From NCBI GenBank assembly GCA_000697665.1, contig KL197709.1, forward strand, positions 2,727,599 through 2,791,598: a stretch of DNA of 64,000 nucleotides, given 5' to 3'. The translations under genes were made by a program, and so were the position numbers. Below the pieces are notes generated by a model. It had not been told where the DNA came from and did no database searches. It saw nothing but the letters and a program-made list of their open reading frames with translations. This document shows positions 40,129 to 41,754 of the stretch, in pieces; the stretch's first letter is position 1; each line of letters opens with the position of its first letter. The DNA is from Jaapia argillacea MUCL 33604. Its lineage: Eukaryota > Basidiomycota > Agaricomycetes > Jaapiales > Jaapiaceae.

Positions 40129-41754
40129 ATGGCCGATACCGAGGAACCAGTCGTCGTGAACAAGAACAAGAGGCATAGAAAGGAAAAGCGTGCGTTTATT
40201 TTCCTTTCTTCCCCGAAACCAACCTGAAGGAGTTTCGTCGATCAGCATGGGACACGGATGACATTGATCAGTGAGTGCTTTCCTGCTATGACCCTACCGA
40301 AAGTATAGCTCCCACTAACCTTCTTTTTCTCCTCGCAGTGTAAGCACGGCAGTTAATAAACGCTATCCCGACCCCATTTCATCCCACTCGTAGTGGAAAG
40401 TCGATCCGTTCCAGCCGACGGATAACAAAGGTGGTACTTTCACCGAAGAGTCATCTTTTGCGACGCTCTTCCCAAAGTATCGAGAAAAGTACTTGAGGGA
40501 AGCGTGGAGTGCTGTCACTAAATCTCTTGAACCCCACGTAAGTTACTCCTCGCCGTACCATTCAACCCCCTCACCGCCACCCCTAGGGCGTAGCATGTAC
40601 CCTTGACCTAATCCACGGTTCAATGTCCGTCCGCACAACCCGCAAAACATATGATCCCTACATCCTCCTCAAATCCCGCGACCTAATCAAACTCCTCGCT
40701 CGTGGCGTATCGATCACACAAGCAGTCAAAGTGTTGGATGACGGAGTTGCTTGTGATGTTATCAAGATTGGAGGGTTGGTGAGGAATAGGGAGAGGTTTG
40801 TGAAGAGGAGACAGAGGATTGTGGGGCCGGATGGGAGTACGTTGAAGGTCAGTTTCTTGTGTATTCAGTTTTTTGGGCATGAATTTTGAATGTTGCTGGA
40901 TGGTTTTTGGCGGTAGGCTATCGAGTTGTTAACACAGTGTTACGTGTTGGTACAAGGGAATACCGTCAGCGTTATGGGTCCTTACAAAGGTCTCAAAGAG
41001 GTTCGAAGAATAATCCTTGATTGCATGAAGAATATCCATCCAATATACCGAATCAAGGCACAGTTTCCTTTGCTTTCCCTTTTTTCTGCATCTCACCCTT
41101 GCTTTTAGGAACTGATGATCAAGCGAGAACTAGCAAAAGACCCGAAACTAGCAACGGAGTCATGGGATCGTTTCCTTCCTCAATTCAGGAAGAGGCATCT
41201 AAAGACTTCGGAGAAGACTGCTAGGAAGAACGAGGCGTTGGAGGCGAAGAATGTTGTAGATTGTGGTGCAGAGAAGGAGAAGGGAAAGAAGAAAGAGAAG
41301 AAGGTGTATACGCCATTCCCGCCTCCTCAACTACCTCGGAAGGTGAGTTTCCCATCTTTTTTTGCTGGCTGAGGCGGAGGGAGGTCTGATCGGCCTGCTT
41401 TTTAGGTCGATTTGCAATTGGAATCGGGTGAATATTTCTTGAAAGCTCATGAGAAGGAAGCGAGGGAGAATGCTAAGCGGAAACAAAAGGTTCGTCCTCC
41501 CGTCTTTTCCACTTTTCCTTCGTCATGTTGTTTACACGACTTCCAATTACTAGCAAGAAGAAGTGACGGCTCAAAGGCAAGCACAAAGAGCAGAAGCGTT
41601 TGTTGCACCTGTAGAAGAGGCGTTACCGAGTGTTGAGGAGAGGAGGAAGAGGAAGCATCGAGAGGGGGTGGAGGATGAGGGAGGGGAAGGTGAAGGGGGT
41701 GAGAAGGTGAAGAAAAAGAAAAAGAAGGAGAAGAAGAGTGGGGAGAGTGCTTAG
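40129..41754 (+). CDS. KRR1: KRR1, small-subunit processome KH protein
   Basis: Nucleolar KH-domain protein needed for 40S ribosome assembly. The start [20 protein letters not shown] joins to [20 protein letters not shown], the conserved N-terminal signature. Next are [80 protein letters not shown] and [40 protein letters not shown] carries the KH GxxG region, followed by [20 protein letters not shown]. The C-terminus is the Lys-rich tail ([16 protein letters not shown]). Exons join in phase, but between DID and WKVDP the reading needs a single-nucleotide exon at 40339 (T) between two strong introns, 40271-40338 and 40340-40393. The 3' third is interrupted by several short introns. Confidence 0.95.
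40339..40339 (+). other. Candidate one-nucleotide microexon in KRR1
   Basis: The first intron (68 nt) starts GTGAGT after ...GATCA and ends CTCGCAG. The next base is T, followed at once by GTAAGC, which starts a 54-nt intron with a TTAAT branch-like site and end CGTAG. Only this T restores the frame: CA + T gives His, then TGG AAA GTC GAT (WKVD). Direct joining of the outer exons shifts the frame. Confidence 0.7.

Follow-up and report, generated by a model that had tools for sequence, protein, structure and literature searches.

The reading at positions 40129-41754 of the window, the whole stretch of 64,000 nucleotides of Jaapia argillacea MUCL 33604 DNA analyzed here, encodes Krr1 on the forward strand. 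A homology search with the first 340 residues as the query matched Krr1 of yeast (5wlc_NK, E 1.3e-129), Chaetomium (5jpq_g, E 7.7e-118), and human (7mq8_NY, E 2.4e-107), and both Pfam KRR1 KH domains were present (PF17903, E 4.3e-31; PF21800, E 3.9e-47). Krr1 is essential in yeast, and the gene gave one match in its own genome (assembly of 43.7 Mb, 95 contigs). Coding exon 1 (40129-40189, ATG...AAGC) is followed by a 56-nt GT-AG intron (40190-40245), which joins C to CA to give the Pro of KPWDTDDID as in yeast Krr1 and thereby supports the reading as far as this junction, and by the 25-nt exon 2 (40246-40270), ending in ...GATCA. Farther downstream, exon 4 (40394-40537) starts with TGGAAAGTC (W K V), and the remaining coding sequence comprises exon 5 (40587-40847), exon 6 (40917-41057), exon 7 (41109-41342), exon 8 (41406-41489), and exon 9 with the stop codon (41554-41754), all of which read open. 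These are separated by GT-AG introns of 49 nt (40538-40586), 69 nt (40848-40916), 63 nt (41343-41405), and 64 nt (41490-41553), and, between exons 6 and 7, by a 51-nt GC-AG intron placed by homology (41058-41108, AAG/GCACAG...TTTTAG/GAACTG). The donor of the latter shows little consensus beyond GC.

The region between exons 2 and 4 is where the candidate single-nucleotide exon is located. Positions 40266-40408 read as GATCA, an upstream intron A of 68 nt (40271-40338, GTGAGT...CTCGCAG), a lone T at 40339, a downstream intron B of 54 nt (40340-40393, GTAAGC...CGTAG), and then TGGAAAGTCGATCCG. The T would constitute exon 3 (40339-40339) and supply the third base of a His codon (CA/T), and both sides of it are ordinary splice signals (CTCGCAG/T/GTAAGC), in an AG/N/GT arrangement. 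Re-reading the sequence returned exactly the coordinates, lengths, and intron ends given in the original prediction (68 nt, T, 54 nt). Its two statements about the frame were likewise reproduced: with T 40339 alone between the outer exons the reading is DIDHWKVDP, whereas joining 40270 directly to 40394 shifts the frame and leads to a premature stop after ...SIEKST, so that the T is needed for the frame.

The placement of this base can be compared with a conserved motif. The N-terminus of yeast and Chaetomium Krr1 is KPWDTDDIDKWK, in which a single residue separates DDID from WK (DDIDKWK); the Krr1 encoded here reads KPWDTDDIDHWK (DDID-H-WK) if exon 2 stops at 40270, exon 3 is the T, and exon 4 is read from TGG. 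Human Krr1 does not have the motif at the corresponding place, and the comparison is therefore one with two fungal sequences only. All single and paired introns within 40249-40469 were enumerated (GT or GC donors, AG acceptors, at least 35 nt), while exon 1, the intron that follows it, and the end of exon 4 were kept fixed, and 28 of the 766 resulting models, the model without an intron included, were open and in frame. Among these 28, the 1-nt exon had the highest homology score (453, against 431 for the runner-up) and the highest splice score (0.2, against -5.3); it was also the sole model to contain the fungal N-terminal KPWDTDDIDxWK. The same enumeration bears on a reading in which exon 3 is 13 nt long (40339-40351, donor GTTAAT), followed by a second intron of 42 nt, so that the transcript would read GATCA-TGTAAGCACGGCA-TGG. 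As originally noted, this longer exon keeps the frame and inserts four residues, identified as VSTA, between H and W; it came fourth of the 28 by splice score (-6.5) and fifth by homology, but the four residues are absent from yeast and Chaetomium Krr1, and its homology score is 425 versus 453. A further alternative is a stwintron, a type of structure known from fungi according to excerpts of the literature, in which one intron would be nested in a splice signal of another and all bases between the outer exons would be removed. Nested GT-AG pairs amounted to 353 models, five of which were open and in frame; all five encode the same product, in which the conserved segment following DDIDH is missing (score 343 versus 453). 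Failing the test of frame and homology, the stwintron reading was rejected, with a probability that we consider negligible. KRR1 relatives were also sought in bacterial and archaeal contigs (269 pattern matches) and viral contigs (39), collections not meant for fungi, and none was found there.

A second line of evidence was obtained with a self-training gene finder that does not use homology and combines a codon-phase Markov model with models of donors, acceptors, branch points, and lengths, allowing any exon length. It was trained in six rounds on 200 kb of the same contig outside the window (C1:2,000,001-2,200,000), giving a training set of 375 introns (median 56 nt) that are predictions of the gene finder itself, not RNA-supported introns. 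The hold-out is imperfect: of the 90 long ORFs behind the coding model with which the starting set was made, 22 lie in the window, none of them overlapping KRR1, and the starting set also used hand-set intron preferences. The intron cost was likewise set by hand; a prior version over-rewarded introns (5,428 in 264 kb in the last round) and was discarded, and the scoring was corrected. The gene finder predicted KRR1 with a 1-nt exon at 40339. Forbidding the acceptor at 40338 cost 10.6 nats and removed the N-terminus of KRR1, and forbidding the donor at 40340 cost 7.8 nats and led to the 13-nt exon instead. Relative to the 375 predicted introns, intron A lies at the 40.5th percentile and its acceptor at the 84th, while intron B lies at the 29.6th and its acceptor (40393) at the 46th. 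By contrast, the GTTAAT donor required by the 13-nt exon, already regarded as weak in the original prediction, falls at the 0.8th percentile of the trained model and the 42-nt intron at the 1.3rd, and we consider the 13-nt exon very unlikely. The 1-nt exon was predicted at three of four intron costs (-4.0, -5.5, and -7.0); at the harshest cost (-8.5) the start of KRR1 moved to 41115, and its 5' part was lost together with the microexon. In the window plus the 200 kb, no other 1-nt exon was predicted at those settings, a 1-nt length being found for one of 405 internal exons at the default. T is not favored at either exon edge, with a frequency of 17% before donors and 20% after acceptors. The gene finder, which handles GT-AG introns only, misplaced one of the eight KRR1 introns, predicting 41001-41108 instead of the GC-AG intron 41058-41108. 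Seven other internal exons of 3-8 nt were predicted at the default setting in C1:2,000,001-2,200,000 (L002-L021), some of which may be false.

The likelihood that such an arrangement arises by chance was estimated by shuffling the 123-nt stretch (40271-40393) 20,000 times, with dinucleotides preserved and its first 6 and last 12 bases left in place. A usable AG-N-GT occurred in 1,381 of these shuffles, and in 41 a 1-nt split beat the single intron by the rule of the gene finder; the observed splice scores were reached in three with a 1-nt exon and in 37 when any exon that restores the frame, up to 40 nt long, was allowed. These values are relevant to the possibility that 40271-40393 is a single 123-nt intron and that the broken frame reflects an assembly error of one base in one of the flanking exons. 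Assemblies do contain base errors, and the outer splice sites, taken alone, are acceptable, as the percentile of acceptor 40393 indicates. However, the score of the 123-nt intron is low (5.1st percentile) and its removal breaks the frame, no run of more than three equal bases is found at either junction, and the rest of KRR1 is open through all exons. The error would in addition have to coincide with an internal acceptor and donor one base apart, of a quality seen in 3 of 20,000 shuffles, which makes this explanation distinctly improbable. Across 264 kb on both strands, flanking introns as good were found at one of 1,781 AG-N-GT sites, namely 40339. Genome-wide, the pattern CTAACN{5,30}CAGNGTAAG gave 13 matches at 12 sites, and when the 13 pattern loci (about 3 kb each, matched strand only) were submitted to the gene finder, a gene was predicted in four, across the site in two, and with a 1-nt exon in one, which is KRR1. 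The reversed control gave 59 matches, as if a close acceptor and donor were avoided, although the control has other dinucleotides and composition may explain the difference between 13 and 59. A comparison of introns A and B revealed no sign of duplication, 827 of 2,000 shuffles scoring as high.

The homology, the homology-free gene finder, and the enumeration thus all favor 40339, and the single-nucleotide microexon proposed for KRR1 is supported as a prediction. From the sequence, the frame, the homology, and the splice-signal scores, which are the direct observations available here, we infer with high confidence that the KRR1 mRNA is formed by removal of two short GT-AG introns in succession, with one coding nucleotide (T40339) kept between them. 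Introns A and B would each be recognized singly, by intron definition, a mode in keeping with the predicted introns of this genome, whose median length is 56 nt. Their removal would have to be stepwise because the splicing machinery cannot sit on both sides of one base simultaneously; the same argument for sequential removal is made in the available excerpt of the paper on APC11 (PMC4674806). As to the order, the splice signals suggest that intron A is probably removed before intron B. Intron A has the stronger acceptor (84th versus 46th percentile) and a CTAAC (40315-40319, forward strand) that matches the branch-point consensus learned by the gene finder, is followed by a pyrimidine tract, and places the putative branch A 20 nt before the intron end. 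The donor of intron B also rises from the 22nd percentile in the unspliced sequence to the 51st after removal of A, since GATCA then precedes the T, and these three features together favor the A-first order. Intron A would thus leave first, and the GATCA-T join would create a better 5' splice site for B, resembling a recursive-splicing step. At a recursive-splicing ratchet point, an acceptor is directly followed by a donor and the two are used stepwise, as described for large introns. The KRR1 site would likewise use an acceptor and a donor in steps, but its two introns are short, at 68 and 54 nt, and a single base would remain between them. The APC11 paper also mentions ratchet-point recursive splicing (PMC4674806).

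Skipping of the T, retention of A, retention of B, and retention of both lead to a premature stop in all four cases. This outcome would accommodate regulated or leaky splicing, in which the T is often skipped or an intron is kept, the frame-broken transcripts are destroyed, and the level of KRR1 is tuned, a scenario compatible with successive removal of the two introns around T40339. However, mis-splicing commonly yields premature stops anyway, and use of a cryptic site, as in the 13-nt exon, would keep the frame; such tuning therefore seems unlikely. A broader proposal is that the site represents a recursive step of obligate order in short introns, in which loss of intron A creates the donor by which intron B becomes recognizable, and that, because the same four outcomes end in a stop, production of a ribosome-assembly factor is tied through the one-base exon to the accuracy of splicing; the arrangement may also be conserved in relatives. 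We regard this proposal as speculative and doubtful.

Exons of one nucleotide have been described previously, and the following comparisons are limited to excerpts of the cited papers. The original prediction presented KRR1 as a second example, a count that is out of date: in land plants, 1-nt exons were in print in 2015 for APC11 (PMC4674806, PMC8831610) and in 2022 for VPS55 (PMC8831610), and in Fusarium, a 1-nt exon of CYP621A was in print in 2026, with RNA reads, as what its authors call the second case and the first in fungi (PMC12940212). CYP621A is similar to KRR1 in being a fungal nuclear gene in which a 1-nt exon lies within an apparently over-long intron and restores the frame in a conserved motif, and it was recognized by the same reasoning (PMC12940212). 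However, the CYP621A exon is a G (AGGGT) in the middle of a Gly codon, found in 20-24 genes and covered by 18 RNA reads (PMC12940212), whereas that of KRR1, a ribosome-assembly gene, is a T at the third base of a His codon, predicted in one genome from the DNA. The Fusarium authors also suggest that a middle G favors 1-nt exons (PMC12940212). APC11 shares with KRR1 a 1-nt exon in a basic cellular gene and a proposed sequential removal of the introns, its exon being constitutive, but it is a plant gene, its exon is an A, and it was tested with reporter constructs and occurs in the majority of the land plants examined, with some losses of introns (PMC4674806, PMC8831610). VPS55 likewise carries a nuclear 1-nt exon, with a conserved donor (GTRAGT); unlike KRR1, it is a plant gene, alternatively spliced in some lineages (PMC8831610).

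More distant parallels are found outside this group. In mitochondria, a one-nucleotide exon is reported between group II introns of the Ophiostoma rnl gene, where a similar Ceratocystis configuration is cited (PMC12308204), and another in placozoan cox1 (PMC5436844); in the excerpt of a Ceratocystis paper (PMC8208691), the phrase occurs in the reference list only. The mitochondrial cases resemble KRR1 in that one base is kept between two introns (PMC12308204, PMC5436844), but they differ in their genetic compartment and, for Ophiostoma, in that the introns are self-splicing group II introns with a different recognition chemistry (PMC12308204). According to excerpts, fungal stwintrons also involve two consecutive splicing reactions at one place, but these are nested and no base is kept. 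The P450 microexons of Phanerochaete are very short basidiomycete exons as well, the shortest, however, being 6 bp in the portion of the paper available (PMC1184071). Among the matches listed in the literature search, to which most subscription papers are external, the excerpts contained no 1-nt exon either in KRR1 or in any nuclear gene of a basidiomycete, and in the other basidiomycete papers with the word 'microexon' among the matches opened, the word refers to a read-mapper setting only.

Within the literature searched, the predicted exon of KRR1 is apparently the first of one nucleotide in a basidiomycete and in a ribosome-assembly gene. The case is very probably real and would be an added member of a very small known class, rare rather than new in kind, because plants and fungi have already provided a few 1-nt exons. 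As a pyrimidine (T), the KRR1 exon differs from those of CYP621A (G) and APC11 (A), and the site would provide a compact natural substrate for studying the order of removal of two introns one base apart.

Other features of the genome were recorded in the course of the analysis. No 5.8S rRNA was found in the assembly at E <= 0.001 (39 of 1,321 candidates scored), and the ribosomal repeat may be missing from the assembly. The fungal-type kinase family PF17667 was represented by 66 matched stretches and DUF6593 (PF20236) by 46, counts that refer to stretches, not genes, and the latter were clustered on contigs C69, C19, C7, and C27. Both families are expanded in Agaricomycetes.
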